From: a bacterium
Lineage (GTDB): Bacteria > Bacteroidota > Ignavibacteria > Kapaibacteriales > UBA2268
Direction of reading: 5' to 3'
NCBI GenBank assembly: GCA_030431515.1
Contig: JAUIIX010000006.1
Span: 1 to 64,000 of the forward strand
Length of the DNA stretch: 64,000 bases
The notes under the pieces were generated by a model. It did no database searches. It worked only from the letters and a program-made list of their open reading frames with translations, and was not told where the DNA came from. The translations under genes and the position numbers were made by a program. Shown here in pieces: positions 41,304 to 63,006 of the stretch (positions within the stretch are counted from its first letter, which is position 1; each line of letters starts with the position of its first letter).

Positions 41304-41304
41304 A

Positions 41305-42459: not shown

Positions 42460-42462
42460 TTA

Positions 42463-44591: not shown

Positions 44592-44690
44592 TTAAAGGGA
44601 TTGGATTAGTTGGTATAGTTTTTCGCAGACGATGGATTCTTCAAATTTCTCTTCAAATAATTTCTTAGCGTTTATTGATTTCTGAATATT
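44592..44690 (-). pseudogene. 3' remnant of a glycosyltransferase gene
   Basis: Minus strand reads IQKSINAKKLFEEKFEESIVCEKLYQLIQSL*, resembling a GT4 C-terminal helix; no body upstream. Confidence 0.6.
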
Positions 44691-45559
44691 GAATCTAAAT
44701 ATTTAGAATATGTTTTAGCACCCATATAATTTAAGTGACCAATATCACCATATTCTATATCACTTAATCTAAAATTAGAATGATTTAAATGAATAAAATT
44801 ATACTTATTACTATACTCATTAAACTTATCTTTTGTAAAAGTTCTAATTTCGTTATTATCTATGTATGTTGGTGTTTCAAGTAAAATAATTGTAATATGA
44901 TTATCGTTGCAATATTTTATTATCTTTTCTAAATATTCATTTTGATAAATTGAAAAACTATATTTTGTTAATTTAGTGGTTTTTGATAAATGCAAAGCTT
45001 CTTTTAATTTGTTTCGAATTAAATAGTTGTATCCACCTATACTATAATCATTAAGATGAACCAAATTAAAAAGAGATTTAACTGTTGTTTTTAATAATAC
45101 TAATGAAGATTTAACATAACTTTGTATAACTGCAATACTATTAATATCATATAAATAATATAATTCTTCTATTTCACACATTGGAGCTAAATATGATAAT
45201 TTTGTTGTCAAAATTCTTTTATCCTTTAACCATCTATCATCATCAACTTTTATTAGGTTCTGTGGTCTGTAGGAAATAAGTACAGTGTCTAAACCAATTA
45301 TAGCATTTATATATTTAAGTTTAATAAAGCTATAAATATAAGCATCTGCACTATTTGATAGATTTAAGCTAGTAAAAATTGTATCGTTTATCGCACATTC
45401 AGTATGAGAATCACCAAGTATTAAAGTCTTATTATGTTTAAATTTATTTATAAAAATATAATCAGGATAATTGATTTTAACAGTTGAATAAATAAGAATA
45501 CCTATCATTATTATATTGATAAGAAAAAAAAATATAATATATTTTATAAATTTAAACAT
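44672..45559 (-). CDS. SGNH-hydrolase-like membrane-anchored protein
   Basis: TLILGDSHTECAINDTIF block I; GDIGHLNYMGAKTYSKYL C-terminal block; follows MBOAT. Confidence 0.7.
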   Translation of the reverse strand: MFKFIKYIIFFFLINIIMIGILIYSTVKINYPDYIFINKFKHNKTLILGDSHTECAINDTIFTSLNLSNSADAYIYSFIKLKYINAIIGLDTVLISYRPQNLIKVDDDRWLKDKRILTTKLSYLAPMCEIEELYYLYDINSIAVIQSYVKSSLVLLKTTVKSLFNLVHLNDYSIGGYNYLIRNKLKEALHLSKTTKLTKYSFSIYQNEYLEKIIKYCNDNHITIILLETPTYIDNNEIRTFTKDKFNEYSNKYNFIHLNHSNFRLSDIEYGDIGHLNYMGAKTYSKYLDSIFRNQ

Positions 45560-46989
45560 TAAAATTGAAAATAAATAAATTCACTCTGACTTCCTCCCAT
45601 AGAAATCACTAAATAAAAAACAAAGGAATATATTAGAATTTGTAAATATTTTGATTTTTCTTTTATATCTAAGCCAAATTGCTTGTTTCGACAAAACCAC
45701 TCAACTAATACTAATACAATAAGTGCAAATAGTAAATCATATAGATTAGTTTGTAATTTTCCTGAAAAAATAGCACTAAACTTTATATCAAAAAGAGAAG
45801 TATTAAATATACCTCCAATATAAGTAAAAGCTGAGCTAAGATTATCGGATCTAAAAAATATCCATAATAAGCATGTAAGTGAAAAAGTAAATAAAATCTT
45901 TGGTATTTCAAAGTATTTATTTGGTAATATAAATATTCTTAATGAAAATACAGAAGGTAGATATAGTAAACCATTAAAAAAACCCCAAGCTATAAAAGTC
46001 CAGTTCGAACCATGCCAAAGCCCACTAATTGTAAAAGTAATAATCAAATTCGTTAAATGTTTGATTTTAGATACCCTACTTCCACCTAATGGTATATAAA
46101 CATAATCTCTAAACCATGAGGATAAAGAAATATGCCATCTCTTCCAGAATTCATTTATGCTTCTTGAAAAATATGGGAATGCAAAGTTTTGCATTAGTTG
46201 AAAACCAAATAATTTTGAAACACCAATAGCTATATCTGAGTATCCCGAAAAATCACCATAAATTTGAAATGCAAATAAAACAGAGCCTATTACCAATGTA
46301 CTTCCTGGGAGAACTTCGGAATTATCAAATATATACGCTACACCTGTAGCACAATTATCCGCAATAACAACCTTTTTAAAAAATCCCCATAGAATTTGTC
46401 GCAGTCCATCTACAGCCAAGTTATAATCAAACTGTTTTAAAGTACTAAACTGAGGTAAAAGATTTTGTGCTCTTTCAATAGGTCCTGCTACTAATTGAGG
46501 AAAAAAACTTACAAAAGTAAAAAATTGAATCGGATCATTAGTGGGCTTTAAATGATTTCTATATATATCGATTGTATAACTCAAAGTTTGGAAAGTATAA
46601 AAACTTATCCCAACTGGTAGAATTATATTTAATGTGGCAATGTCTTGTTGGTAACCTATTTCTGATAATAGTATTACAAAATTATCAATAAAAAAATTAA
46701 AATATTTGAAAAATCCAAGAACTCCAAGATTAATTGCTAAACTGGCTATTAAATAATATCTTTTTTTTGTTATATTGCTTGTCGAATATAGTTTTTGACC
46801 TATTATATAATCAGCAAGACTACTTAAAAATATTAATCCTAAAAATTTCCAATCCCACCAGCCATAGAAGACATAACTAACTACAAGCAAAAATAAATTT
46901 CTATAATTAATATTTTTTGAAAAGAAAAACCAATAGAATATAAATACTATTGGAAGAAACATAATAAATTCAATAGAATTAAATAACAT
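45559..46989 (-). CDS. MBOAT family O-acyltransferase (AlgI-like)
   Basis: FFPQLVAGPIERAQNLLPQF, INEFWKRWHISLSSWFRDYVYIPLGGSR, GLWHGSNWTFIAWG. Confidence 0.93.
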   Translation of the reverse strand: MLFNSIEFIMFLPIVFIFYWFFFSKNINYRNLFLLVVSYVFYGWWDWKFLGLIFLSSLADYIIGQKLYSTSNITKKRYYLIASLAINLGVLGFFKYFNFFIDNFVILLSEIGYQQDIATLNIILPVGISFYTFQTLSYTIDIYRNHLKPTNDPIQFFTFVSFFPQLVAGPIERAQNLLPQFSTLKQFDYNLAVDGLRQILWGFFKKVVIADNCATGVAYIFDNSEVLPGSTLVIGSVLFAFQIYGDFSGYSDIAIGVSKLFGFQLMQNFAFPYFSRSINEFWKRWHISLSSWFRDYVYIPLGGSRVSKIKHLTNLIITFTISGLWHGSNWTFIAWGFFNGLLYLPSVFSLRIFILPNKYFEIPKILFTFSLTCLLWIFFRSDNLSSAFTYIGGIFNTSLFDIKFSAIFSGKLQTNLYDLLFALIVLVLVEWFCRNKQFGLDIKEKSKYLQILIYSFVFYLVISMGGSQSEFIYFQF

Positions 46990-48139
46990 TCTTTATAATC
47001 TCATTATATTTACTTGCATGTTCATTCCAATCAAATTGTTTCATTTCCAAATCTACATTTATCTCTATTTCATCATTATCAAAATAATTCAATATTTCTT
47101 CTTTTAATTTTATTAAATCCTTTGCCTCGTAAATATGATAATAATTACTCAAACTCCATTTATCTTTAAGTATTTCAAAGGTTCCACCTACATTTGTTGC
47201 AATAATTGGACATCCAGCAAATAATGCATCTAATACACTTGTTGGCAATCCCTCTGTATAACTTGGATTGATAAATAAGGGTTTATTCTTTAATATAGAG
47301 ATTACTTCACTATGTTTTAATTTACCTAAAAAATGAACTCTATCCTGTAATTTATATTCTATGACTAATTCACTTAATTTTGATTTATACTCACCATCAC
47401 CAATTACATGCAGAATAATATTTGTCTGTAAATCTTTTAACACTTCAACAATATCCTGAACACCTTTACCGTCTATTAATCTTCCAACAAAGGCAATATT
47501 CTTTTTATCCTTAAACTTTTCAAAATAAGCTGATGTTTGTAAATCTTTAAAATAATTTACATCAACTCCTCTATATACTACTTCAATTTGTTTTGTAATA
47601 TTAAATTTATCTTGTAAAAATAATTTACCAGCTTCTGAAACACAAACTATTTTATCTGACAAATATAAAGTTAATTTGCCTAATGTTTGCATATAAGTCT
47701 TATTAACAAATGAAATAAGTTTACTATCTAATTTAGAATAATCACTTCCATGTTCAACATGGATTAATTTGATTTTTCTGAATCTAAATTTTGCAAAAAA
47801 TGAACCTAAACTGGTGTTAAAAAAAAACATCGTCCTTGTCATGACGATGTTATAATCTACTTTATATAAGTTTATAAACATTTTCCAAAATTGTAATTTC
47901 CAAAATTTAGCAAGAGGAAAATTATTTACTACAAAAAAGGCGGGGTATCTTATGACTTTTACATTATTATGTATAATCTCTAATTCAGTAGCATTTTCTG
48001 TATTTGGAGTAAATATGGTAATTTCATAATTTTCATAATTCTTAGATAGATACTTTACAAAATTATCAACATGACTTTCCAAACCACCTGTATGAGGTAA
48101 AAAATTACCTGGGAAAATTATGAGTTTAATTTTCTCCAT
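46979..48139 (-). CDS. Glycosyltransferase family 4
   Basis: FVGRLIDGKGVQDIVEVL; NPSYTEGLPTSVLDALFAGCPIIATNVGG. Confidence 0.92.
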   Translation of the reverse strand: MEKIKLIIFPGNFLPHTGGLESHVDNFVKYLSKNYENYEITIFTPNTENATELEIIHNNVKVIRYPAFFVVNNFPLAKFWKLQFWKMFINLYKVDYNIVMTRTMFFFNTSLGSFFAKFRFRKIKLIHVEHGSDYSKLDSKLISFVNKTYMQTLGKLTLYLSDKIVCVSEAGKLFLQDKFNITKQIEVVYRGVDVNYFKDLQTSAYFEKFKDKKNIAFVGRLIDGKGVQDIVEVLKDLQTNIILHVIGDGEYKSKLSELVIEYKLQDRVHFLGKLKHSEVISILKNKPLFINPSYTEGLPTSVLDALFAGCPIIATNVGGTFEILKDKWSLSNYYHIYEAKDLIKLKEEILNYFDNDEIEINVDLEMKQFDWNEHASKYNEIIKNVI

Positions 48140-49178
48140 AATATTCTAAATACCAATTTATGAATTGGTTAATTCCATATTCAATGGTTGTTTCAGGTTT
48201 ATATCCTACGTCTTCTATTAAATTTTGAACATCTGCATTTGAAGCAGGTACATCACCTGGCTGCATTGGTAAATAAATCTTTTTAGCAACTTTACCTAAT
48301 TTACGTTCTATTTCTTCTATAAAATACATTAATTCAACTGGGTCATTATTCCCTATATTATAAAGAGAATACGGAGCAAAACTTTTTGCAATTCCATCTT
48401 CATCAGTCCAATTTTCTACTGCTTTAGGAATTCTATTCATTACTTTAAAAATACCCTCAGTTATATCATCTATATAAGTAAAGTCACGAATCATTTTACC
48501 TTCATTATATATTTCAATTGATTCATTTGCTAATATCTTTTTAGTGAATATAAACATAGCCATGTCTGGTCTTCCCCAAGTTCCATACACACTAAAAAAC
48601 CTCAATCCAGTAGTGGGTATATTATATAATGAAGAATAAGAATGAGCCATTAATTCATTAGCTTTTTTACTGGCTGCATAAATAGATAATGGGTGATCAA
48701 CATTGTGTTCTACAGAAAAAGGAGAACGTTTATTTCCACCATAAACAGAACTCGATGAAGCATAAACTAAATGTTTAACTTCATTATGTCTGCAACCTTC
48801 CAAGATATTTAAAAAGCCAGTAATATTAAAATCAACATAATCATGAGGGTGAGTTAATGAATGTCTCACTCCAGCTTGAGCTGCAAGATTAACTACATAG
48901 TCGAATTGTTCATTTGCAAATAAATTTGCCATTCCTTCTCTATCGGTCAAATCTAATTTAATAAATCTATAATTTGAATACTTTTCACTTTGTAAAAATT
49001 GATTATATTTAATATCATCTTTCTTAATACCATGATTTAATAATCTATCATATTTTAAATTCAAATCATAATAATCATTAATAATATCAAGACCTACTAT
49101 CTCAACATCTTCTTTAAATAACCTACCAACTAAATGATAACCAATAAAACCTGCCGTCCCTGTAACTAAAATTTTCAT
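48126..49178 (-). CDS. NAD-dependent epimerase, UDP-glucuronate 4-epimerase-like
   Basis: VTGTAGFIGYHLVGRL; NLAAQAGVRHSLTHPHDYVDFNI; RFFSVYGTWGRPDMA. Confidence 0.9.
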   Translation of the reverse strand: MKILVTGTAGFIGYHLVGRLFKEDVEIVGLDIINDYYDLNLKYDRLLNHGIKKDDIKYNQFLQSEKYSNYRFIKLDLTDREGMANLFANEQFDYVVNLAAQAGVRHSLTHPHDYVDFNITGFLNILEGCRHNEVKHLVYASSSSVYGGNKRSPFSVEHNVDHPLSIYAASKKANELMAHSYSSLYNIPTTGLRFFSVYGTWGRPDMAMFIFTKKILANESIEIYNEGKMIRDFTYIDDITEGIFKVMNRIPKAVENWTDEDGIAKSFAPYSLYNIGNNDPVELMYFIEEIERKLGKVAKKIYLPMQPGDVPASNADVQNLIEDVGYKPETTIEYGINQFINWYLEYYGEN

Positions 49179-51058
49179 GTTAAATACTCTTCATACCATT
49201 GTTGAAAAATGAATAAATTCCAAATCAATACATTCCTATTTACTTTATCGATATAAAATTCATTTTTAATTTTTTTAATCTCTTCTAATTTAAAAATACC
49301 TTGTTTTAAAATTCTTTCATCACTCAATAATTCTAAGACATTGCTTTTTAATTCATTTCTAAGCCAATTTTCAATAGGTATTGAAAACCCTTGCTTCTTT
49401 CTTTCTATAAGATTACTCGGAACATATCGATATAAAACATCTCTTAATACTGATTTAGTTTTATTATTTCGATATTTATAATTATAAGGTAATCTTAAAG
49501 AAAATTCAACCACTTCTTTATCTAAAAATGGCACTCTTGTCTCTAACGAATTATACATTGCTGCTCTATCAACTTTAACTAAAATATCATTTACTAAAAT
49601 TGTTTTTATATCATAATAACCGAACACATCGCTTTTCAAAATATAATTCGGTTTATTTTTGTCTTGAATAATATTATTATTAATTAAAATAGAATTCGTT
49701 AACAAATTAAAATATATCTTATATTTTTCAATTAAATCCTTTTCTTTTATAAAATTTAATATTTTATTATAATTATTAATATTTAACTCTTTGCTTAGAA
49801 AGTATAATTTATTTCCAAACAAAGATTTAATAAATTTAATAAATAACTTTAAAGGTATTTCTTTAATACCACTTGTAAAACTTAGAATCTTATAAAACAA
49901 GAAATAGTGATTATAACCATAAAATAATTCGTCTCCACCATCTCCAGAAAGTGAAACCGTTACCTTTTCTTTAGCTAATTTAGAAACCAAATAAGTTGGT
50001 ATTTGCGAAGAATCAGCAAATGGTTCATCATACATTTTTGGAATCAAAGATACAACTTTTGACAAATCATCATTAGTTAAAATAAGATCTGTATGATTAG
50101 TACCTATATGATCTGCCACACTCTTCGCAAATACGGATTCATCATATCTTTTATCTTCAAATCCAATAGAGAAAGTATTGATCTTTGTTGTAGAATTTTT
50201 CTGCATTAAAGCTACTACTAAAGAAGAATCAACTCCACCAGATAAAAAAGCCCCAAATGGAACATCTGTTCTCATCTGCATTTTAACGCTATTTTCTATC
50301 AGATTATCTAATTTATTTACCGACTCTTCATAGCTTAAATCTAATTCAATTCCATCACCAAATTTACTTAATTTATCAGAATCCCAATAACAATGTTTAG
50401 TAAAAGTAAAATTATTAACCTCCAAATCTAAATAATACCCTGGTTCTAATTTATAAGTATTCTCAAATATAGAATTTGGATGATTGATATAAGATAAATT
50501 CAAAAATTCATTTAAAGCTGTAGAATTAATTTCTTTGTTAAACGAAGGAAACTTCATTATTGGCTTTAATTCAGATGCAAACACAAAAGAATGAGTATCA
50601 GTAAAATAATAAAGTGGCTTTTCACCAATTCTATCTCTTGCAATAAATAACTTTAATTCATTTTTATCATAAAGAGCAAATGCAAACATCCCAATACATT
50701 TCTCTAAAGCCACCTTTAAACCATATAATTCAATTAATTCTAATAATACTTCAGTATCAGAACTACCTTTCCAATTAATATTATTTTCAGATTCAATTTC
50801 AGATTTTAATTCTAAATAATTATAAATCTCACCGTTCAAAGTAATAACATATCTACCAGAATGCGAAATCATAGGCTGATGACCAGACTCACTCAAGTCT
50901 AAAATCGCAAGACGCTTATGCCCTAATACTACATTAGTCTGAGTATCTTGCCAAGTTCCGTCGCTATCAGGTCCTCTATGCTTGATACTCTCCAACATGC
51001 TGTAAATAACTTCTTCAGCTACTCTACTCTTGCTTATATATCCTGCTATTCCGCACAT
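49175..51058 (-). CDS. Asparagine synthase (glutamine-hydrolysing) family, copy 1
   Basis: MCGIAGYISK; SIKHRGPDSDG; FGAFLSGGVDSSLVVALM. Confidence 0.93.
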   Translation of the reverse strand: MCGIAGYISKSRVAEEVIYSMLESIKHRGPDSDGTWQDTQTNVVLGHKRLAILDLSESGHQPMISHSGRYVITLNGEIYNYLELKSEIESENNINWKGSSDTEVLLELIELYGLKVALEKCIGMFAFALYDKNELKLFIARDRIGEKPLYYFTDTHSFVFASELKPIMKFPSFNKEINSTALNEFLNLSYINHPNSIFENTYKLEPGYYLDLEVNNFTFTKHCYWDSDKLSKFGDGIELDLSYEESVNKLDNLIENSVKMQMRTDVPFGAFLSGGVDSSLVVALMQKNSTTKINTFSIGFEDKRYDESVFAKSVADHIGTNHTDLILTNDDLSKVVSLIPKMYDEPFADSSQIPTYLVSKLAKEKVTVSLSGDGGDELFYGYNHYFLFYKILSFTSGIKEIPLKLFIKFIKSLFGNKLYFLSKELNINNYNKILNFIKEKDLIEKYKIYFNLLTNSILINNNIIQDKNKPNYILKSDVFGYYDIKTILVNDILVKVDRAAMYNSLETRVPFLDKEVVEFSLRLPYNYKYRNNKTKSVLRDVLYRYVPSNLIERKKQGFSIPIENWLRNELKSNVLELLSDERILKQGIFKLEEIKKIKNEFYIDKVNRNVLIWNLFIFQQWYEEYLT

Positions 51059-51060
51059 AA

Positions 51061-51120
51061 CTAAACAAGTTCCTTAACTAAAGTAGTAAATTTCTGACCC
51101 ATCATATTTATATTAAATAT
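51061..51120 (-). pseudogene. Possible 3' remnant of a glycosyltransferase gene
   Basis: Minus strand reads KIFNINMMGQKFTTLVKELV*, resembling a GT4 C-terminus. Confidence 0.35.
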
Positions 51121-52568
51121 TTTTTAATTAAATAAATTGGATTTTGTTTTCTTAATATTTTAAAGTAAATTATTAACGAAAATAACAACATTAAAATAGT
51201 GTATATTCCAATCTGAAAATATAAACCCAATTCCCTAACAAAATAATAAAAAAGACTTAAAAAAGTAAAAGTTATTAAAATAATAATAGCATTTGTAAAA
51301 TTGAATCTCAGTGAATATGATTTATAAGATAAGTATAATTCAAATAGAAATAGAATAATATTACCTATTAAATAACTTATTGCTACTGCGAATAAATTAA
51401 ACTCAGTTATAAAAAATATCAATATTAATAGCTCAGTAATGTTTTTAGCAAAATAAGAATATACCCTTAAATATGATTTTTTTGAAATAGTTATACCCAA
51501 AGATGTAATCCACGAAATACTTTGAATCATAGAACCTAAGACTAATATAAAAACATAATTACCTGCTTGGAAATATAATTCTGAAGATAGTATTTTAATT
51601 ATCATATCTGTAGTATAAACTAAAAATAGCCCTGCTATTGCAATTAATATCATATATAAATTTAATACTATATTATAGGTTTCCTCTGAATCTTTTTCTT
51701 TAAATATGGATAATGAAAAAGGCCCCCAAGCTGTTGTAAATGCCTGAATTGGCAACTGAATTATAAATGCTACTCTAAATGCTATTGCATATATTCCTAA
51801 TTTATCTTCTGTTAGATAATTAGAAATAAATCCTCTTTCAAATACGGGGCTTATTGCACTTATAAAACTTACTAATCCTAATGGTAATGCGTAATAAAAT
51901 AGTTCCTTCAATATCTTTGTATCTTTTTTAAATTCTAACCATTCAAAGACAAATATTAATCCTATTAGGGCAAAGATACTTCTTGTAGATAAAATAATTA
52001 TAAATATATCAACTAAATCTACATGGAAATATTTTATACCTATTATTATTCCACTAAATGAAAATACTACAGAACCTATATTTAATAATAAAAATTTATA
52101 TTTTGAGAATGTCCATTTTAAAATATTACTTGTATAATTTATCAGCATTCCTACTGGTATTTGTAATAATATGTAGGGCATTAACTCATTATATTTATCT
52201 GTATTTAAATAATAAAACGATAAATCATTCGAAAAATAGTAAAATATTGGGAATAATGCAATTATAAAAATAAGTTGAATTAGTAAGGAACTGCTTACTA
52301 TTAGTTTTTTTTCATTTTTTTCATTATATTCATAAAAATATCTGGCTAATGCTGAATCTTGACCCCATACTACAGCAATAACTAATACATTAATTAAAAT
52401 GTTTATAGAATCGAAGACACCAAATTCTTCTACACTTAAATAACGTGTTAAAAATGGAAAAGCAAACATCATAAATACTGCATTTAATGCGTTTGCTCCA
52501 CCATATACTATACTATCTTTTAGTAGAAACTTTATTCTATTTTGTTGCGTCGATTTTTCTTTTTTCAA
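51108..52568 (-). CDS. Wzx-type polysaccharide flippase/translocase
   Basis: LLKDSIVYGGANALNAVFMMFAFPFLTRYLSVEEFGVFD; ~12 TM segments. Confidence 0.9.
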   Translation of the reverse strand: MKKEKSTQQNRIKFLLKDSIVYGGANALNAVFMMFAFPFLTRYLSVEEFGVFDSINILINVLVIAVVWGQDSALARYFYEYNEKNEKKLIVSSSLLIQLIFIIALFPIFYYFSNDLSFYYLNTDKYNELMPYILLQIPVGMLINYTSNILKWTFSKYKFLLLNIGSVVFSFSGIIIGIKYFHVDLVDIFIIILSTRSIFALIGLIFVFEWLEFKKDTKILKELFYYALPLGLVSFISAISPVFERGFISNYLTEDKLGIYAIAFRVAFIIQLPIQAFTTAWGPFSLSIFKEKDSEETYNIVLNLYMILIAIAGLFLVYTTDMIIKILSSELYFQAGNYVFILVLGSMIQSISWITSLGITISKKSYLRVYSYFAKNITELLILIFFITEFNLFAVAISYLIGNIILFLFELYLSYKSYSLRFNFTNAIIILITFTFLSLFYYFVRELGLYFQIGIYTILMLLFSLIIYFKILRKQNPIYLIKKYLI

Positions 52569-53736
52569 AATCTATTAAATATTGTACTAATTTTTCCATG
52601 GTTTTTTGTACCACTTCACTTTTATACCATTCTAGACCATCAAGACCCATTTTTTTATAATTATTAGGGGTTTTAATAAAATTATTAAAATGGTTCTCTA
52701 TATCTTCAATTGTATTTGCATTCATAATATCATAAAGTGACTCTTCTGTTTTTTCACTAATATTTCTGTATGATAATATTGGTTTACCTCCAACTAATGC
52801 TTCAAATAAAACACCACTTGAATTCCAACTATTTGTAAACTGTCCGCAAACAATGTCACACAGTAATAAACAAACCATAATATCTTTTCTATACATTTTA
52901 GGTAGCCAAGTTACTTTATCTTCTATATCTAAATCTTTTATCAATTTTTTGCTAAATTCAACATCAATACCATATTCTAAAAATATTAACTGTGATTTAA
53001 TGTTCTTCTTACTTTTGACAAAATTTGCATAACCCTTTATTAGTTTATCTGTACCTTTATTGTCTGGATCGTCACTTTTCTTATTATACCAAAAATGTCT
53101 GTTGTGTGATAATATTAGTACATCATTTTCATTTCTTATACTTTTTAATTCCTTTCCATATTTGGAAAGTTCCAATAATGTATCTAAATTGTTAATATCA
53201 TATTCTGGATGATAAATCATTGGCAAATAACCATTCCATCTTATATGTTTTTTATTTAATTTATTTAATCTATTTTCATATAAATCATTTGTATTTGGCA
53301 TTTGTATTATGTCGGCATATGGAACTCCCTTTTTTTGAATCCATCTAATACCTGCGTTTATTATCATCCGTTTAGGGCTTAAGGATTCGAATATTGGACG
53401 CCCCCATATATCACCACCATACGGTTTAAATAAATTAATTGGTATATTTGACTTTTTTAAAAATGCGGGTGCAAATCCACAAGAAATATTAAAATCAAAT
53501 CCTTTTAAATCGGTTTTGATTTTTTTACTTGATACAAAGAAGTATGATATTGGATGACCCCAATTTAATTGGTGGATATATTCACTGTATTTATTATCAT
53601 GGGTATCACATTCTGGTAAGAAATGACTTTGTTCGGCATCTGTTAAAAAGAGGTGCGCATCTATATCGTAATCCCTTAGATATCTCATCCAAGAGAAAAA
53701 ATTATTATTCATATTTCCTATCATGGCAACTTTCAT
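52537..53736 (-). CDS. Glycosyltransferase (GT-B-like)
   Basis: FLEYGIDVEFSKKLIKDLDIEDKVTWLPKM; SGVLFEALVGGKPIL. Confidence 0.75.
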   Translation of the reverse strand: MKVAMIGNMNNNFFSWMRYLRDYDIDAHLFLTDAEQSHFLPECDTHDNKYSEYIHQLNWGHPISYFFVSSKKIKTDLKGFDFNISCGFAPAFLKKSNIPINLFKPYGGDIWGRPIFESLSPKRMIINAGIRWIQKKGVPYADIIQMPNTNDLYENRLNKLNKKHIRWNGYLPMIYHPEYDINNLDTLLELSKYGKELKSIRNENDVLILSHNRHFWYNKKSDDPDNKGTDKLIKGYANFVKSKKNIKSQLIFLEYGIDVEFSKKLIKDLDIEDKVTWLPKMYRKDIMVCLLLCDIVCGQFTNSWNSSGVLFEALVGGKPILSYRNISEKTEESLYDIMNANTIEDIENHFNNFIKTPNNYKKMGLDGLEWYKSEVVQKTMEKLVQYLIDFEKRKIDATK

Positions 53737-53875: not shown

Positions 53876-54532
53876 TTAATCAATTTTAATTTCTCCAATT
53901 TTTTTTGCTGGTACACCTGCTACTATATGAAAAGATTCAACATCTTTTGTAACAGCAGCAGCTAAGCCTACTACAGAATATTTTCCAATTTTCAAACGAG
54001 CTAACATTGATGATTTATGACCTAAATGTACGCCATCTTCAATAATGCATCTTCCACCCGTACTTGCAAATGCAGAAATAAAACAAAATTCTCCAACTGT
54101 ATCATCATGACCAACATAACTATAAGACATTAATGTTGTATGATCTCCAATAACAGCATTTGCACCTAATTGCGAATAAGGCATTAAAACATTGCCAAAG
54201 CCAAGTTCTGCTGTTTTAGAAACTGTTGAAGTAGGATGTATAATTGATGCAAATCTTTTATTTGGTATTTTTAATGATTTAAGTAAATTATGTCTTTGAA
54301 AAGCAACTTTTACGGTACTTAAGGTATATATAAAATATACATCTTCATCAAATTTTTTCCAATCTTCATTTTGAATACCCCCAATAATTGGATAATTATT
54401 TATATCTTCTTTTTCATTATCGTTTAAAAAGCCTAATATTTTATATTTTTGTCCAGCATCTATACAATCCTCAATAATAGAAGCAACAACTGTCCCGTTT
54501 CCTCTGCCTCCAATAATTACAATTTTTTTCAT
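53876..54532 (-). CDS. NeuD/PglD-family sugar O/N-acyltransferase (left-handed beta-helix)
   Basis: IVIIGGRGNGTVVASII; hexapeptide repeats; ADKLG-like LGHKSSMLARLKIGKYSVVGLAAAV. Confidence 0.88.
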   Translation of the reverse strand: MKKIVIIGGRGNGTVVASIIEDCIDAGQKYKILGFLNDNEKEDINNYPIIGGIQNEDWKKFDEDVYFIYTLSTVKVAFQRHNLLKSLKIPNKRFASIIHPTSTVSKTAELGFGNVLMPYSQLGANAVIGDHTTLMSYSYVGHDDTVGEFCFISAFASTGGRCIIEDGVHLGHKSSMLARLKIGKYSVVGLAAAVTKDVESFHIVAGVPAKKIGEIKID

Positions 54533-55404
54533 ATTAATTTTGCCCTTTCTAATATTTTCTTTGCTTTAATAACTAATGGTGGTCCTATAAATACACCATC
54601 AATAATAGCTACACCTTGGTTATTAGCACCAGCTTGTTCGTATAAATTTAAAATCTTCTTAGCATTAGCAATTTCTTCATCTGTAGGTGAGTAAAATTTA
54701 TTTACATAATCAACTTGTTTCGGATTTAATACCCACATTGCTTCATATCCTAAAGTTTTTCCTTTTGATAAATGCTTTTCTAATCCTTCATTATCATGTA
54801 CATTGATATATGCAGCATCAATTGGAATTAAATTGTTTGCTCTTGCAACAATAGCAACTTTGGCTCTAGGGTAAAAAATACTATTATCTTCTCCAAAATC
54901 TCTTATTCCAGATATATCACTTACAAAGTCTTCTGAACCAAACCCAAGTGCAATTATTCTTGTAGAGGATTTTGCAATTTCATCAGCATTTACAATTGAT
55001 TGAGCAGTTTCTAAGATAGGAATAATTTTCAATTTACCTATTTCTAAATTTTTATCTCTTTCAATAATACTCAATAATTTATCAAAAAATATTACATCAC
55101 CTGCTGTTTGAGTTTTTGGAAGTAAAAAACCATCAATCATATCGATACTTAACTGAGACACATCTTGAAAGAAATAATCACTTGTTTGGTCATTGATTCT
55201 AATGAAGACTTTATGATTTTTAAACAAATTCTCATTTAAACTTTCTAAAATAATTTTTCTAGCTAATAACTTATTATTTTCAGGGTAAACAGAGTCTTCT
55301 AAATCTAATAAAATACAATCAGCATTTGATTTTGAAGATTTAATATGGAAATCTTTATTATGTCCTGGAACAAAGAGCAAAGATTTAAAATTATACTTCA
55401 TCAT
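54529..55404 (-). CDS. HpcH/HpaI aldolase/citrate lyase beta (CitE)-like protein, copy 1
   Basis: SLLFVPGHNKDFHIKSSKSNADCILLDLEDSVYPENN; LALGFGSEDFVSDI. Confidence 0.9.
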   Translation of the reverse strand: MMKYNFKSLLFVPGHNKDFHIKSSKSNADCILLDLEDSVYPENNKLLARKIILESLNENLFKNHKVFIRINDQTSDYFFQDVSQLSIDMIDGFLLPKTQTAGDVIFFDKLLSIIERDKNLEIGKLKIIPILETAQSIVNADEIAKSSTRIIALGFGSEDFVSDISGIRDFGEDNSIFYPRAKVAIVARANNLIPIDAAYINVHDNEGLEKHLSKGKTLGYEAMWVLNPKQVDYVNKFYSPTDEEIANAKKILNLYEQAGANNQGVAIIDGVFIGPPLVIKAKKILERAKLI

Positions 55405-55861
55405 AACTTTTCCTTTTTATTAATATTTTCCTTTTAAAAGATATAATATCGATTTTATCTTGATTACTACCAATTGTTTCAACGTATAAAACACCTCTAT
55501 CTGATTTTGATTTTGAAGGAATTATATCAAGAATCTTTGTACGTGAGTAAATCGTATCATTAATAAATGTAGGGTTTAAGTGTTTAATTTCTTCATATCC
55601 TAAGTTGGCTATTGCCTTCCCACTAATATCCATAACAGATAAATGAACAGAAAGACAGAAAACTAAAGTACCAGGTACTAAAATTTTTCCATGCTTATTA
55701 TTTTGAGCATAGTCAATATTAATATGTACTGGATGATGATTCATAGTTAATAAACTAAAAATATTATTATCACTTTCAAAAATAGTTTTTGATTGTGAGT
55801 GAATTATTTCATCACCAATATTAAAATCTTCTAAGTAAAATCCCATTGAATTAGAAAGCAT
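55391..55861 (-). CDS. MaoC-like (hotdog) dehydratase/hydratase
   Basis: FNIGDEIIHSQSKTIFESDNNIFSLLTMNHHPVHIN. Confidence 0.85.
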   Translation of the reverse strand: MLSNSMGFYLEDFNIGDEIIHSQSKTIFESDNNIFSLLTMNHHPVHINIDYAQNNKHGKILVPGTLVFCLSVHLSVMDISGKAIANLGYEEIKHLNPTFINDTIYSRTKILDIIPSKSKSDRGVLYVETIGSNQDKIDIISFKRKILIKRKSYDEV

Positions 55862-56678
55862 TAGATTTACTCCAATTATATATTTTAATTAAATTTTTAA
55901 TATGTGGTTTTTCATATATTTTATCTTTGTATTTAATAACTCCTATCTCATAATTTTCTAATAGATTATATTCTTTAACAAGATAATTAGCAGTTTCTAT
56001 TTCTTCTTTTGAAAAGAATTCAATTTCATCAAAATAATGAATTTGATTAGGGTGTATTAAAAATTTACCATCAAACCCTAGATAAAAGCCATCTTTAACT
56101 TCTTTAACAAACTCTTCTTTTTCAAATAAATTAATATTAACAACATCAATAACTTTAATATCAAATGCTTTTGCAATATTTAATAGTTTAAATCTTGTAT
56201 AATAAAGATTTTTAAAATTATATTTCATCCCCAAATGATTACAATAATCATGACTACCAAATCCAATTCCACTAATATTTAGTATTTTTGACTCAATTAT
56301 TTTTTCTGCATTTAATATACCTAAAGGACTTTCAAATAAAACAATACAGCTATCATTATTTATTATTTCTGAGATATAAGTTAATTGATCTAAATTTTCA
56401 ATTTTTGGTAAAATAAAATTATTGATTTTATTTTTTCTTAAATCATTGATATAATCATCTTTTGAGTTATAAAATATTTTTAATCTTACAAAATAATTAT
56501 TCTTAAATTTAATATTTAAAATATTATTAACTGACTTTTCAAAATCATCACATTTTACAGAATCTTCTAAATCAAATACAAAATAATCAGAATTTAAACT
56601 ATCTTTATTTGCTAAATATTTTTCATTATATGCAGGTATAAAAAAATATTTTCTCAAAACAAAAATCTCCTGCACCAA
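55851..56678 (-). CDS. CitE-like protein, divergent copy 2
   Basis: SDYFVFDLEDSVKCDDFEKS; ISGIGFGSHDYCNHLG; FLIHPNQIH. Confidence 0.82.
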   Translation of the reverse strand: MVQEIFVLRKYFFIPAYNEKYLANKDSLNSDYFVFDLEDSVKCDDFEKSVNNILNIKFKNNYFVRLKIFYNSKDDYINDLRKNKINNFILPKIENLDQLTYISEIINNDSCIVLFESPLGILNAEKIIESKILNISGIGFGSHDYCNHLGMKYNFKNLYYTRFKLLNIAKAFDIKVIDVVNINLFEKEEFVKEVKDGFYLGFDGKFLIHPNQIHYFDEIEFFSKEEIETANYLVKEYNLLENYEIGVIKYKDKIYEKPHIKNLIKIYNWSKSNAF

Positions 56679-58531
56679 TGTTCAAAATTCATAAATGACC
56701 AAATAAGAAGACGGTGATTAATTTTTTTATCAAGATGCTCGTGTACTATTTTATTTATATAATCGCGACTTATGTAGTCAGTAGAGATAGTATGCTCTTC
56801 GAGCAGTAATTTTTTAATATAATTAGCGTTTTCACCTCGGTACCAGCTCTCGTCCGGTGCTGAAAAGCCCTGCTTTTGTCTATTAATAATTTGCTCGGGA
56901 ATATATCCGCTCATTGCTTTACGCAATACATTTTTACCGTCGCTATATTGGCTATATGCTTTCTTCTTATTAATTATATTTTCATCAAGTTTTTTAATCT
57001 CGGCAGTTAGGTTTCCGAGTTTGTGCTTCACAGGGATTTTCTGAGCGAAATTAACAAGGTCATTATCCAAGAAAGGAAAACGCTCTTCAAGTCCATTTGC
57101 CATAGCGAGTTTATCACCTACTAATAGCAAACCATGTAAAAAAGTCTTGCTTTCAAAGTAAAGTGAATTTTGAATATGATCTTGAGGTGTATCGTATTTC
57201 AGCTTTTTATTGAAAGTAAACACACGTTCAAATATTTGACGTGGCTCTTCGATATCAATATGTTGATACATATCTTTTACAAATAGTTGCCCCTTATCCG
57301 CATCAGGAACAAGACGTTGCCAGAAACTATAATATTGGTCAAAAAACTGCTGCTGAGAAAGTGAATCAAATACTTTGTAGTATCGCCAAGGGTAGCCACC
57401 GAAAAGTTCATCGCCCCCAGTTCCTTGCAAACAAACTTTCACAAATTTAGACGCAAGCCGGGAAATATAGTAGTTAGGGTAAGACATACCAACACGCAAA
57501 TCTTCAAGGTGATTAACTACTTTGGGTAGCGACCAACTAAGATCCCCTGCATTGATAACTTGCTCAAAATGTTCAGTTTTAAAGTGATTAGCGATTAGCT
57601 CTGCGTCTCGTCTTTCATCGTAATTAGCTTCTACTCCAGTAACTTCCGACATATCGAAACCGCAAGTAAAAGTAGAAAGTCTATCTACGTGCTGAGAAGC
57701 AACTGCCACGATAGAACCGGAATCCATACCACCAGAGAGGTAAGAACCCACCGGAACATCAGCAATCATTTGTCGAGTAACTGCTTGATGGAAAAGACGT
57801 TGAGTTTCATCAACTGCATCTTGGAAAGTCATGCTTTCGTCAGGTTGCGAGAAATCGTAATCCCACCACGAATGGTGATACACACCATCTGACTTTGCCG
57901 AAATAGTTACGGTATTTGCTTGAGGAAGTAAAGTAACTCCTTCAAAGAAAGTACGATAACTAAATAAATTTTGAAAAGTAAAGTATTCGTTAAGTGATTT
58001 TTTATTCAATCTAACTTGGAAACTTGGATGAGCTATAATTGCCTTAATCTCAGAAGAAAACACTATAGTTTTTCCATTGAACCAATAATAGAGTGGTTTA
58101 ACACCAAATCTATCACGGCTAAGGTAAAGAGTTTTTGTCTCAGTATTCCACGCACCTATAGCAAACATTCCGTTAAGTCTTTCAAAGAATGAAACACCAT
58201 ATTCGGCAAGACCTTCGGTGATTACTTCTGTATCTGTTGTGCTATGGAAAGTGTGACCTAAAGATCTAAGTTCTTGTTTTAATTCTAAATAATTGTAAAT
58301 ACAACCATTAAAGACGATAACCCATTCTTTATTATGAGAAATCATCGGTTGACTACCTTTGTCGGAAGTATCAAGAATAGCAAGACGTTTATGAGCAAGC
58401 GCAATATTATCTCGTACATAATAGCCCTCGCCATCTGGTCCACGGTGAGCAATAGTTTCAGCCATTTTCTTTAGATTATTTAAAGAAAATGATTCACCAG
58501 TTAGATTAAAAACGCCTACAATTCCACACAT
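56654..58531 (-). CDS. Asparagine synthase family, copy 2 (higher G+C)
   Basis: MCGIVGVFNLTG; TIAHRGPDGEGYYV; VPVGSYLSGGMDSGSIVAVAS. Confidence 0.93.
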   Translation of the reverse strand: MCGIVGVFNLTGESFSLNNLKKMAETIAHRGPDGEGYYVRDNIALAHKRLAILDTSDKGSQPMISHNKEWVIVFNGCIYNYLELKQELRSLGHTFHSTTDTEVITEGLAEYGVSFFERLNGMFAIGAWNTETKTLYLSRDRFGVKPLYYWFNGKTIVFSSEIKAIIAHPSFQVRLNKKSLNEYFTFQNLFSYRTFFEGVTLLPQANTVTISAKSDGVYHHSWWDYDFSQPDESMTFQDAVDETQRLFHQAVTRQMIADVPVGSYLSGGMDSGSIVAVASQHVDRLSTFTCGFDMSEVTGVEANYDERRDAELIANHFKTEHFEQVINAGDLSWSLPKVVNHLEDLRVGMSYPNYYISRLASKFVKVCLQGTGGDELFGGYPWRYYKVFDSLSQQQFFDQYYSFWQRLVPDADKGQLFVKDMYQHIDIEEPRQIFERVFTFNKKLKYDTPQDHIQNSLYFESKTFLHGLLLVGDKLAMANGLEERFPFLDNDLVNFAQKIPVKHKLGNLTAEIKKLDENIINKKKAYSQYSDGKNVLRKAMSGYIPEQIINRQKQGFSAPDESWYRGENANYIKKLLLEEHTISTDYISRDYINKIVHEHLDKKINHRLLIWSFMNFEHWCRRFLF

Positions 58532-58545
58532 TTATTTAGTTATTC

Positions 58546-58932
58546 TCATATTTTATTTTCGAAAATATTTAATATTTTGACCTTAAAACTATCAAAATCC
58601 TTAACGTTTCTAGTCACCAGCTTTAGATTGTAATTCTGAGCTGTTGAAAGTATTAAGTTGTCAGGAATTTTAATTTTCTTAATTTTAAAATTTTCAATTG
58701 TTCTTTCTGCAATATCACAGTTAATTTCTATTATTTCAAAAACATTTAGCAATTCCTTAACTTTTTTCTCTTGTTGTTTAGTAAATGGATAACTCAAAAC
58801 CTCAATGAAAGTAATTAAAGAAATAGCAGAGTCATTTATATTTTTTGTAATAAATTCACTTGCAACTTTATTGTTTTGCAAATGATAAATTATTATATTT
58901 GAATCAATTAGAAATTTTAATTTCTTTCCCAT
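58546..58932 (-). CDS. PIN-domain toxin (VapC-like)
   Basis: FLIDSNIIIYHLQNN; SLITFIEVLSYPF; IPDNLILSTAQNYNLKLVTRNVKDF. Confidence 0.88.
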   Translation of the reverse strand: MGKKLKFLIDSNIIIYHLQNNKVASEFITKNINDSAISLITFIEVLSYPFTKQQEKKVKELLNVFEIIEINCDIAERTIENFKIKKIKIPDNLILSTAQNYNLKLVTRNVKDFDSFKVKILNIFENKI

Positions 58933-59517: not shown

Positions 59518-60654
59518 CTACTCAATCCCTTTTAAAACTTCTACTACATATTTATAATCTTCATCAGTCATTCGATTATGAAGTGGAATTGCCATTGATT
59601 GATTATTTGCAATCATTGCTCCTGGGAAATCATTTGGGTTAATTCCAATTTTATCAGTATAGTAACTTAGCATAGTAACTGCATGAGTTCCTGGTCGAGT
59701 AGAAATTCCTTTATTCTGTAATATTTCCATAATTTCATTTCTTGAATAAGGAGATTTACTCTCATCAATCAAAGTTACATAAGATTGCCAACCGTGTTTG
59801 TAATTCTCATCTCTCCAAGGAGTTGTTAGCCAATCAATTGAGGCAAGTTCTTTATCATAAAACTCAGCCCATTTTGCTCTTTCGTCTATGAAGAAGTCAA
59901 GCTTTTTAATCTGCACAACACCAACTGCACCTTGTAAATCAGTCATTCTATAATTATAACCAAGCATATTAAAGTCAGGAAGAATATATGGCTTAGGTCC
60001 GTGATGACGTTGTTCTTCTGAAATAGAAGCCCCATGATTTCTCAATTGAGATAAATATTCAGCAATATCATCATCATTAGTAGTTAACATTCCACCTTCA
60101 CCTGTAGTAACAGATTTTCTTGGGTGAAAAGAAAAGCAACCTATATTTCCTAATCCACCAGCAGGTGTATTTTTATAAGCCGCACCAGCAGCACATGCAC
60201 CATCTTCAACCAACGGAATATTGCCAGCAATTTCTTTAATTCTATCCATATCAGCACACAAGCCAAATAAATGAACTGGTATAATTGCTTTAGTTTTAGA
60301 AGTAATTTTTGATTTTAATTGTTCTGGATCAATATTAAAAGTTTTAACATCAATATCACAAAATACTGGCTTAGCACCACAATATAAAATCACATTTGCA
60401 GTAGAAACCCAAGTAAATGCAGGTACTATAACTTCATCTCCTTCACCTACACCAAGTGCAACTAATGCCAAATGAAGTGCAGTAGTTGCACTCGTAACAG
60501 CAATAGCGTGCTTTACATTATGACGTTCTGCAAATAACTGCTCAAACTCTCTAACCTTTGGACCAGCTGTAAGCCAACCAGTCATAAGTGGTTCTTTAGT
60601 TGCTTGCCATTCTTCTTCACCCGTTACAGGTTGTGATATTTGTATTTGTCTCAT
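59518..60654 (-). CDS. DegT/DnrJ/EryC1/StrS sugar aminotransferase
   Basis: HAIAVTSATTALHLALVALGVGEGDEVIVPAFTWVSTANVI; GCFSFHPRKSVTTGEGGMLTT. Confidence 0.95.
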   Translation of the reverse strand: MRQIQISQPVTGEEEWQATKEPLMTGWLTAGPKVREFEQLFAERHNVKHAIAVTSATTALHLALVALGVGEGDEVIVPAFTWVSTANVILYCGAKPVFCDIDVKTFNIDPEQLKSKITSKTKAIIPVHLFGLCADMDRIKEIAGNIPLVEDGACAAGAAYKNTPAGGLGNIGCFSFHPRKSVTTGEGGMLTTNDDDIAEYLSQLRNHGASISEEQRHHGPKPYILPDFNMLGYNYRMTDLQGAVGVVQIKKLDFFIDERAKWAEFYDKELASIDWLTTPWRDENYKHGWQSYVTLIDESKSPYSRNEIMEILQNKGISTRPGTHAVTMLSYYTDKIGINPNDFPGAMIANNQSMAIPLHNRMTDEDYKYVVEVLKGIE

Positions 60655-60666
60655 TTTAAAAATGTT

Positions 60667-61122
60667 TTAATTATTTGCTAAATTTTCATTTGAGTAAATG
60701 ATCGATTTATTTATTATTTCTTTTAATTTCGGAAATATAGTAATTACATCTCTAAATAAATCTTTTAATTCTTCTAATATGTATTCGTGACTAATTGAAT
60801 TTCTTAATTCTCTGATTTCTAATAAGTCTTTTGAATTAGATATTATTCCAATTTTTTCTAAGTAATTTGCTTTATCAATTAAAGTAAAATTTGTTTCACC
60901 AAGTAAATAAAAGAAAGATTTTAAATATTTTTGTGTGAAAATATCACTCAGTCTTGAAAATCTTGCTGTCATTGCTTCCATCGTTTCAAGTTCTTCGTAA
61001 TTGAAATCTTTAGTTGTATTTATTTTTTCAACTTTTGTAATTGAATATTCTAATATTTCAAGCCCTTTTTGCAGTTGAATAGTAAGAACTTCTATTTCAC
61101 TTATTACTTTCTTCCTATTCAC
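60667..61122 (-). CDS. HEPN-domain (HepT-like) toxin
   Basis: Helical 151-aa protein with RNSISH (Rx4H); 4-nt overlap with MNT gene. Confidence 0.78.
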   Translation of the reverse strand: MNRKKVISEIEVLTIQLQKGLEILEYSITKVEKINTTKDFNYEELETMEAMTARFSRLSDIFTQKYLKSFFYLLGETNFTLIDKANYLEKIGIISNSKDLLEIRELRNSISHEYILEELKDLFRDVITIFPKLKEIINKSIIYSNENLANN

Positions 61123-61406: not shown

Positions 61407-62387
61407 TTACCTATCCAAAGGGTTTTCTTCACGCCATCTAATTAGCTCAAGTAAGCCATCATTTAAGTTATACTTTGGTACAAATCCTAAATGTTCATGA
61501 GCTTTTTTATTAGAGCCAATTCTATTTTTTACTAATCTACGGGCATCATCTTCACTATATGGCTTGTACGTTACTTTTAAGTCAGATTCTTTCAACTCTA
61601 ATATTAAGTCACATAATTGCTTAATACTTGTTTGAACTTCTGTCCCCACATTATAAAATTCATCAGTTCTTTCAGATTGTGCTGCTAAAACGTTAAATCT
61701 TCCAACATCTTCTACATAAACAAAATCATAAGCTTGTGAACCGTCTCCATTTATAACTGGTGGAACACCTTCGTCAATTTTATTCAACATAATTGGAATA
61801 ACTCCAGTATAAACAGCAGTTTGATCTTGATGAGGACCATATACATTCATATATCTAAGACCAACATAGTTTAAGCCATATCTATCTGCAAATGCTCTAC
61901 ACATAGCTTCACCTGAAATCTTTGTTGCACCATAGAAATTTTGATTATTGAAAGGATGTTCTTCAGTCATAGGTACTTGAACGGCATCACCATAAACAGA
62001 TGCAGATGAAGAGTAAACAAGTTTCTTGACATTATTTTTAACACATGCTTCTAATACATAAAAAGTACCTGCAACATTTACTTCAAATGCAGTTCTTGGG
62101 AAATCTTTACAATGAAGCAGCCACATTGCTGCTAAATGAAATACATAATCAACACCTTTCATCGCATCGTCAAGCAAATCAATATCCCTAATATCTCCAC
62201 CATTTGGATATATCTTACATCTCGGATCTTTTAATTGATGAGTTAAGTTAGACTCTTTTCCTCGAGTAAAATTATCATATACAATCACTTCACCAACATC
62301 TTGTTTTAGAAGTTCACTTACTACAAAACTTCCGATAAATCCACCACCGCCTATTACTAAGCACTTACTATTCTTTAATTCATTCAT
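61407..62387 (-). CDS. NAD-dependent epimerase/dehydratase
   Basis: CLVIGGGGFIGSFVVSELL; YSSSASVYGDAVQVPMTEEHP; RYMNVYGPHQDQT. Confidence 0.92.
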   Translation of the reverse strand: MNELKNSKCLVIGGGGFIGSFVVSELLKQDVGEVIVYDNFTRGKESNLTHQLKDPRCKIYPNGGDIRDIDLLDDAMKGVDYVFHLAAMWLLHCKDFPRTAFEVNVAGTFYVLEACVKNNVKKLVYSSSASVYGDAVQVPMTEEHPFNNQNFYGATKISGEAMCRAFADRYGLNYVGLRYMNVYGPHQDQTAVYTGVIPIMLNKIDEGVPPVINGDGSQAYDFVYVEDVGRFNVLAAQSERTDEFYNVGTEVQTSIKQLCDLILELKESDLKVTYKPYSEDDARRLVKNRIGSNKKAHEHLGFVPKYNLNDGLLELIRWREENPLDR

Positions 62388-62496: not shown

Positions 62497-63006
62497 CTAA
62501 GCCAATATTATGTTTTCTAACTCAATATTTACTATCAAAGATTTCCCTAAACTTTCGATTTCAACTACTAATTGATTCTTGCGGTTTACTTTAAGTATTT
62601 TTCCTTTATAATCTTTGAAGATCCCCGAGGTGAACTTTACTAATTTACCCTTTTTTGGTTCCCCATCCAAAAACTCTACTTCTGTCCCACTTTCTAAAAA
62701 TAACTTCAGCACATCAATTTCTTGCTGCCTAACTTCCACTGGTCTGCCCGAGAAAGAAATATATCTTGTTATTCCTTCAACCGCAATTAAATCATAAAGT
62801 TGTTCTTTCTTTACCTTTACAAAAATATAAGAATTAATAATAGGAACAAAAACATACTTCTTCCTATCGCTCCATTGCTTCAAAGTTTTTTTCAAGGGTA
62901 GATAATACTCCACACCTATTTTATCTAACCTCTCGGCAACTTTCTTTTCAGTTCTACTTTTAGTATATAAAGCGTACCATTTTGGTATATTCTCGCTTAT
63001 TTCCAT
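62497..63006 (-). CDS. UpxY/NusG-like transcription antitermination factor
   Basis: KWYALYTKSRTEKKVAERLDKIGVEYYLPLKKTLKQWSDRKKYVFVPIINSYIFVKV; C-terminal KOW-like SGIFKDYKGKI. Confidence 0.92.
   Translation of the reverse strand: MEISENIPKWYALYTKSRTEKKVAERLDKIGVEYYLPLKKTLKQWSDRKKYVFVPIINSYIFVKVKKEQLYDLIAVEGITRYISFSGRPVEVRQQEIDVLKLFLESGTEVEFLDGEPKKGKLVKFTSGIFKDYKGKILKVNRKNQLVVEIESLGKSLIVNIELENIILA

Follow-up and report, generated by a model that had tools for sequence, protein, structure and literature searches.

A recurring CitE–MaoC–NeuD gene cassette as a probable source of N-acyl groups for surface polysaccharides in Bacteroidota

The DNA described here (the window) is a stretch of 64,000 nucleotides from a bacterium of the Kapaibacteriales (Bacteroidota; contig JAUIIX010000006.1 of assembly GCA_030431515.1). 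Near the start of a polysaccharide operon, it carries a block of four genes encoding two CitE-like enzymes (CitE1 and CitE2), a MaoC-type hydratase and a NeuD-type sugar acyltransferase. This block, CitE2–MaoC–CitE1–NeuD, is probably a portable cassette that provides N-acyl donors for surface polysaccharides, i.e., a set of genes that would build a short acyl group on coenzyme A (CoA) and transfer it to an amino sugar; the direction of the reactions, their substrates and their product are those that we infer. To our knowledge, the origin of acidic N-acyl groups such as malyl and hydroxyglutaryl is unexplained, and the cassette, matched in 246 genome stretches in a single scan, is a specific, widely distributed candidate for that origin. 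The N-acyl groups that surface sugars carry influence serotype specificity, as do the R-group genes of Flavobacterium psychrophilum (PMC6519341).

An initial annotation of the window had described five genes at 53876–58531 as one unit. All five open reading frames are present there, on the minus strand (which that annotation did not give) and in the transcription order AsnB2, CitE2, MaoC, CitE1, NeuD, and they belong to the families it named (Pfam, NCBIfam). The unit itself stands in part: CitE2–MaoC–CitE1–NeuD recurs as a block, whereas AsnB2 (56654–58531), a glutamine-dependent amidotransferase with Asn_synthase and GATase_7 domains, is a co-transcribed neighbour outside the cassette. The HpcH_HpaI domain (PF03328), with E values of 5e-35 and 3e-24, is present in both CitE proteins (CitE2 at 55851–56678, CitE1 at 54529–55404); MaoC (55391–55861), which resembles RipB and mesaconyl-CoA hydratase, has a MaoC_dehydratas domain of the hot-dog fold (PF01575, E value of 3e-13); and NeuD (53876–54532), of the NeuD/PglD type of sugar N-acyltransferases with a hexapeptide fold, has PglD_N and Hexapep domains above their cut-offs and scores 151.9 bits against the NeuD model TIGR03570, just below its cut-off of 160.8. 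Within the block, the reading frames overlap by 4, 14 and 11 nucleotides. The listed start of CitE2 gives an overlap of 25 nucleotides with AsnB2; most likely, judging from the alignment with the residues MLRSYFF of its relatives, translation starts instead at a TTG at 56657, which leaves an overlap of 4 nucleotides. CitE1 and CitE2 are the sole HpcH/HpaI genes of the whole 3.55-Mb genome, and therefore are no part of a housekeeping malyl-CoA or citrate lyase pathway. As the cassette of the window lacks a CoA transferase or ligase, and the genome has no further CitE, the starting material must be an ordinary acyl-CoA.

The initial annotation had called for a search of O-antigen and capsule loci for this gene set, and in glycan clusters the CitE/MaoC/NeuD unit does recur, with AsnB rarely near it. 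With CitE2 as the query, 396 phylum genomes yielded four further clusters with both CitEs (L033–L036), and two clusters found via CitE1-like matches (L037 and L038) have MaoC–CitE1–NeuD without CitE2. A MaoC profile was searched against GTDB genomes and the best 80 of the 246 matched loci were analysed; with the seeds and the window, these make 86 loci with MaoC, many of which are contigs of metagenome-assembled genomes (MAGs). Nearly all of the best 80 loci are from Bacteroidota (mostly gut, marine and environmental) and lie in glycan clusters. Cultured carriers among the loci include Flavobacterium fontis DSM 25660, Ulvibacter litoralis DSM 16195 and Flagellimonas marinaquae JCM 11811. CitE1 adjoins or is near MaoC in 84 of the 86 loci, and in 82 it comes immediately downstream (median gap of −4 nucleotides). 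MaoC–CitE1 is the invariant heart of the cassette. CitE2, present within four genes in 25 of the 86 loci (under a third), is accessory. CitE2, MaoC and CitE1 occur together in about 24 loci besides the window, and MaoC–CitE1 in more than 80; such a gene set is far beyond chance.

The MaoC scores are sharply split, the cassette copies lying at 269–295 bits and the next matches at about 140 bits. Scores in the cassette range were found in seven of the 396 phylum genomes, a match in five of the 54 genomes of the family, and a copy in one of 397 Lachnospiraceae genomes, namely the one already known. Such patchy spread would be typical of exchanged O-antigen modules. The single CitE2 sequence proved too divergent to find any relative in a scan of contigs, whereas the MaoC profile worked. 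Among plasmids and phages, CitE2 matched nothing but citrate lyases and other CoA-ester lyases; among plasmids, MaoC had no match above 46%, the nearest being from Streptomyces (L157), and these matches were used as an outgroup.

The genes around the MaoC–CitE1 pair can be exchanged. A strictly defined NeuD is found within four genes in 61 of the 86 loci, an AAC(3)-type acyltransferase (PF02522) in seven, and a GNAT in one locus (L134). Two loci (L108 and L119) have the order PseB–aminotransferase–PseF–CitE2–MaoC–CitE1–NeuD–x–PseI, and a third (L106) has the order PseG–aminotransferase–PseF–CitE1–CitE2–carboxyltransferase–MaoC–NeuD; the PseB, PseF, PseG and PseI proteins tested from these three loci score above their cut-offs. 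Thus, the cassette sits there among genes for pseudaminic acid, with NeuD as the apparent N-acyltransferase. Five other loci (L035, L054, L080, L084 and L111) have an FdtA-type ketoisomerase with a DegT aminotransferase, and many more have other DegT sugar aminotransferases. Exchangeable acyltransferases combined with exchangeable sugar pathways fit a portable supply of acyl-CoA for sugar N-acylation, and so lend support to the acylation unit of CitE/MaoC and NeuD proposed in the initial annotation. The genetic features of an N-acyl R-group module, i.e., acyl-building genes plus a sugar N-acyltransferase, exchanged among clusters with different amino-sugar pathways, are found here.

In two loci (L070:5137–12790 and L075:1690–12835), MaoC and a duplicated CitE1 lie near genes that by eye resemble those for FabH-type synthases, SDR ketoreductases and an AMP-binding acyl-CoA ligase; these acyl-building neighbours point to acyl-donor supply, and the loci are possibly hybrid acyl-assembly clusters. 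A separate observation concerns a conserved protein of about 320 amino acids (cluster c12) without a Pfam or NCBIfam match, which is encoded in about 16 loci (L065:8374–9339, L110:8325–9275, L114:8364–9314 and others), with NeuD–MaoC–CitE1 on one side and a gene for either ATP-grasp or WbqC on the other; these two seem to be alternatives for a single position.

In the CitE-like superfamily, an Arg, the Mg2+ ligands and an Asp of the lid (D299 in malyl-CoA lyase of Rhodobacter sphaeroides) are reported to be conserved, with Glu in place of the lid Asp only in the malyl-CoA thioesterase group (Zarzycki and Kerfeld, PMC3832036). The corresponding residues D34, E36, D37, R69, E132 and D159 of CitE1 are kept in the window and are invariant in 87 of 87 CitE1 proteins. 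The lid position, in contrast, is occupied by Gly (G274 in the motif FIGPP of the window) in all 86 CitE1 proteins that could be aligned there (motif IGPP). In the 26 CitE2 proteins, the Mg2+ ligands and the Arg are kept, save for two changes of D45 from Asp to Glu, and the lid position is always Glu (E256 in the window), in most cases within the motif EKPH. The profile alignment to 5UGR, 4L9Y, CLYBL, 1SGJ and RipC is ungapped across the lid motif, and the aligned CitE-like proteins used for comparison, catabolic or other, keep the lid Asp, with Glu in one. The active-site loss considered in the initial annotation is, therefore, partial: the Mg2+/Arg site is intact in both enzymes and the lid Asp has given way to Gly in CitE1 and to Glu in CitE2, so that ordinary malyl- or citramalyl-CoA chemistry cannot be assumed for either. 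A conserved change from Asp to Gly in so well studied an active site would inform on the chemistry of CitE enzymes in general.

Both enzymes have the fold (TIM barrel, PF03328) and the metal site of the CitE-like superfamily. The AlphaFold2 model of CitE1 (mean pLDDT of 94.3) has malyl-CoA lyases and CLYBL as its closest folds in Foldseek, and that of CitE2 (mean pLDDT of 92.4) is folded like CLYBL and MtCitE. Against the model of the citrate lyase beta subunit (TIGR01588, cut-off of 443 bits), CitE1 scores 187 and CitE2 85 bits. In the tree, CitE1 forms one clade apart from nine reference enzymes (support of 100/98); the CitE2 branch has support of 100/99, with a placement that is uncertain because of its long branches. 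The Gly in the lid thus marks CitE1 as a variant subfamily rather than a malyl-CoA lyase.

Asp and His are the usual active-site pair of crotonyl-CoA hydratases. MaoC of the cassette has instead an Asn/His pair (N41 and H46, in the arrangement N41-x4-H46), as in domain 2 of mesaconyl-CoA hydratase, and both residues are invariant in all 86 loci. The general-base His142 of NeuD, in the conserved GHD/GHN motif, is shared by 65 of the 66 homologues compared, which come from related loci. Could MaoC act alone, hydrating an enoyl-CoA to (R)-3-hydroxybutanoyl-CoA or another simple 3-hydroxyacyl-CoA, with the CitEs inactive or structural? MaoC is indeed the most conserved member of the cassette, CitE1 lacks the lid Asp, and 3-hydroxybutanoyl is the commonest such N-acyl group in O-polysaccharides (PMC10609480). 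We nevertheless regard this as improbable, as the invariance of the six TIM-barrel site residues in every CitE1 argues for catalysis, CitE1 has been kept beside MaoC in 84 of 86 loci, and the MaoC pair is not the one usual for crotonyl-CoA hydratases.

In the reading that we prefer, an N-acyl-donor cassette, one or both CitE-like enzymes would join an acyl-CoA from central metabolism to a 2-oxo acid, giving a short 3-hydroxy-3-carboxyacyl-CoA of the malyl, methylmalyl or citramalyl type. MaoC would interconvert this ester with the 2,3-enoyl ester (of the fumaryl or mesaconyl type), and NeuD would N-acylate a nucleotide amino sugar with the acyl group taken from CoA. Going by the chemistry of the superfamily, the acyl group would be of the malyl, methylmalyl or citramalyl type or a dehydrated form of these, attached by whichever carboxyl lies farther from the hydroxyl. 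In malyl-CoA from the CitE-like superfamily, the thioester is on C4, and glycans with malyl groups are known from V. vulnificus, P. rubra and S. algae. Both 4-malyl and 2-hydroxyglutar-5-yl amides occur in O-polysaccharides, the former, for instance, in Vibrio vulnificus on 2,3-diamino-2,3-dideoxyglucuronamide and the latter in Flexibacter (Tenacibaculum) maritimus (PMC3210612). As the sugar of V. vulnificus is both a uronamide and N-malylated, AsnB2 and the cassette could act side by side on one sugar.

The lid Asp is the base in malyl-CoA lyases, and in CitE1, which is without it, the donor may be malonyl-CoA or methylmalonyl-CoA, with the enolate formed by decarboxylation without a base. 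Two loci bear on this. An MmdA-type acyl-CoA carboxyltransferase is encoded inside the cassette in L106 and L110, and in L110 there are also a biotin carboxyl carrier protein (BCCP) and AccC. Both loci are from MAGs outside the Bacteroidota, labelled Lachnospiraceae and Clostridia, and their carboxyltransferases are just 45% identical to one another. In both genomes, the highest-scoring MmdA match is the one in the cassette, the second matches scoring 466 bits in G442 (full-length) and 299 bits in G443 (more distant); most of the Bacteroidota carriers tested have a strong MmdA-type copy elsewhere in the genome. If CitE1 requires (methyl)malonyl-CoA, a carboxylase of its own is readily understood: decarboxylation of such a donor would yield the enolate, and the lost lid Asp would not be needed as a base. 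CitE1 might, therefore, represent a reaction class new to the CitE superfamily, in which (methyl)malonyl-CoA and a 2-oxo acid undergo a decarboxylative Claisen/aldol condensation, independent of the lid Asp; it would serve glycan N-acylation, and some genomes would provide it with a biotin-dependent acyl-CoA carboxylase of its own. This is put forward tentatively, as rather doubtful, because it derives from two loci and one substitution.

In the window itself, an MmdA/PccB-type acyl-CoA carboxyltransferase gene (38760–40316, plus strand), the best copy of the genome (774 bits), lies just past the end of the polysaccharide cluster and convergent with it; it is probably a housekeeping gene, of the same enzyme type as those inside the L106 and L110 cassettes.

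Several points weigh against an N-acyl-donor cassette, or against the role of carboxylation in it. Without the lid Asp, C–C chemistry could have been lost altogether, and CitE2, with Glu in its lid, is similar to the malyl-CoA thioesterase group, an activity that would deplete an acyl-CoA pool. The link to carboxylases comes from two loci, both MAG contigs, and two genomes with the cassette (G313 and G445) have only weak MmdA-type matches, of about 344 bits. The loci were gathered by similarity of their MaoC to seeds from glycan clusters, so that the neighbourhood counts are not independent draws, and the frequency of NeuD (61 of 86) stands without a base rate from random glycan clusters. Finally, we know of no glycan product for any carrier of the cassette.

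The cassette might also be a catabolic module for itaconate or citramalate, similar to RipB–RipC, that is merely located in a polysaccharide cluster. MaoC does score 120 bits against the RipB model and CitE1 152 bits against the RipC model (NF038242; CitE2, 73 bits), yet these scores are far under the cut-offs of 340 bits for RipB and 375 bits for RipC. A RipA CoA transferase, missing from the cassette, is found in a RipBC-like catabolic locus (L158), and a second comparison locus (L159) lies among catabolic genes; comparison proteins of these types keep Asp or Glu in the lid, where CitE1 has Gly, and the cassette recurs in glycan clusters beside acyltransferases. Itaconate catabolism was rejected on these grounds (the scores, the lack of RipA, the lid Gly and the glycan context) as very unlikely indeed.

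The initial annotation had further proposed a pathway of five genes, in which the hydroxy-dicarboxylic acyl group is possibly amidated by AsnB2; this step could precede or follow the transfer. AsnB2 is co-transcribed with CitE2 (overlap of about 4 nucleotides), and L033 has an AsnB of 75% identity three genes from its cassette. However, just three of the 86 loci have an AsnB at most four genes from the cassette. The closest AsnB2 homologues outside L033 (73–74% identity; L132 and L133, in genomes G194 and G026) adjoin homologues of the aminotransferase (76–79%) and the epimerase (73%) of the window, and the MaoC search found no match in either genome, i.e., the AsnB module exists there without MaoC or CitE. 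The G+C content differs as well, being 0.37 for AsnB2, 0.35 for the aminotransferase and 0.33 for the epimerase, against 0.19 for CitE2, 0.26 for MaoC, 0.28 for CitE1 and 0.30 for NeuD. Thus, two modules meet in the window, epimerase–aminotransferase–AsnB2 and CitE2–MaoC–CitE1–NeuD. The N-malyl uronamide of V. vulnificus (PMC3210612) implies that both can serve one sugar with the acyl group untouched by AsnB. A five-gene pathway is accordingly a poor prospect, the amidation of the acyl group is not upheld, and AsnB2 was rejected as a cassette member; its probable substrate is a uronic acid in the repeat unit, which it would amidate.

The module of epimerase, DegT aminotransferase and AsnB is conserved as three genes in L132 (3822–9026, with one extra gene inside) and L133 (7251–11276). 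In L132, it is preceded by genes of WbpE-, WbpD- and WbpB-like appearance, and its product there may be a diamino-uronamide. In L033 (9527–12920), genes for a WbmS-like polysaccharide deacetylase and a formyltransferase lie between the cassette and the 75%-identical AsnB.

The operon in which the cassette lies is headed by an UpxY-family transcription antiterminator gene (62497–63006; 143 bits, cut-off of 100), and, like the cassette, all its genes given here are on the minus strand. The other two members of the AsnB2 module encode an NAD-dependent sugar epimerase/dehydratase (61407–62387) and a DegT-family sugar aminotransferase (59518–60654), both assigned by Pfam and NCBIfam, and the latter is the likely source of the amino group to be acylated. 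Among these genes lie two that are A+T-rich, one for a PIN-domain protein (58546–58932) and one for a protein of 151 amino acids without a confident family (60667–61122); they are possibly toxin–antitoxin-like insertions into the operon. The remaining cluster (40368–53736) includes glycosyltransferases, a Wzx-type flippase (51108–52568), a second amidotransferase, AsnB1 (49175–51058), a sugar epimerase (48126–49178), an MBOAT acyltransferase (45559–46989) and a GFO/IDH/MocA oxidoreductase (40368–41303), WbpB-like by inspection.

The initial annotation knew of no characterised pathway with this gene set, and no description of the cassette, as CitE/MaoC with O-antigen, capsule or pseudaminic acid genes, was found in the open-licence PMC literature. 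The nearest relative in organization is the set of O-antigen R-group genes of F. psychrophilum, wfpC–wfpG, which encode an acyl carrier protein (ACP), 3-ketoacyl-ACP synthases, a 3-ketoacyl-ACP reductase and the PglD homologue WfpG; this strain-variable set is the predicted source of a 3,5-dihydroxyhexanoyl group (PMC6519341). Both systems share one logic: acyl-building enzymes are combined with a PglD/NeuD-type transferase in a strain-variable set that would act on a nucleotide amino sugar in an O-antigen cluster of Bacteroidota. However, the chemistry predicted for F. psychrophilum is fatty-acid-like, with a dedicated ACP, whereas the cassette of the window has CitE and MaoC for CoA esters and no ACP. 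Most likely, then, the cassette belongs to the known type of N-acyl R-group module, with a role in N-acylation and with CitE/MaoC chemistry as a new variant.

The pairing of a MaoC-type hydratase with a CitE-like beta-hydroxyacyl-CoA lyase is shared with itaconate dissimilation by RipA–RipB–RipC and with Rv2498c of Mycobacterium tuberculosis (PMC6689899), which have the same folds and metal site; RipABC, unlike the cassette, works in the catabolic direction, has a CoA transferase and a lid Asp in RipC, and shows no link with glycan genes. Malyl-CoA lyase, malyl-CoA thioesterase and beta-methylmalyl-CoA dehydratase of the ethylmalonyl-CoA and 3-hydroxypropionate pathways (PMC3832036) likewise form a CitE/MaoC pair acting on C4–C5 hydroxydicarboxylyl-CoA. 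The closest solved structures are 5UGR and 4L9Y for CitE, and 4E3E and 8HGN for MaoC, and the lid Glu of CitE2 matches the malyl-CoA thioesterase group. These enzymes of central carbon metabolism differ from the cassette in that CitE1 has Gly in its lid and MaoC has one hot-dog domain rather than two. NeuD, for its part, shares its two-domain fold and catalytic His with the NeuD/PglD N-acyltransferases (Campylobacter jejuni PglD, Neisseria PglB and VioB), and is next to sugar aminotransferase genes in many loci; whereas the known members mostly use acetyl-CoA, the donor for NeuD of the cassette is predicted to be the acyl-CoA that the cassette itself would make.

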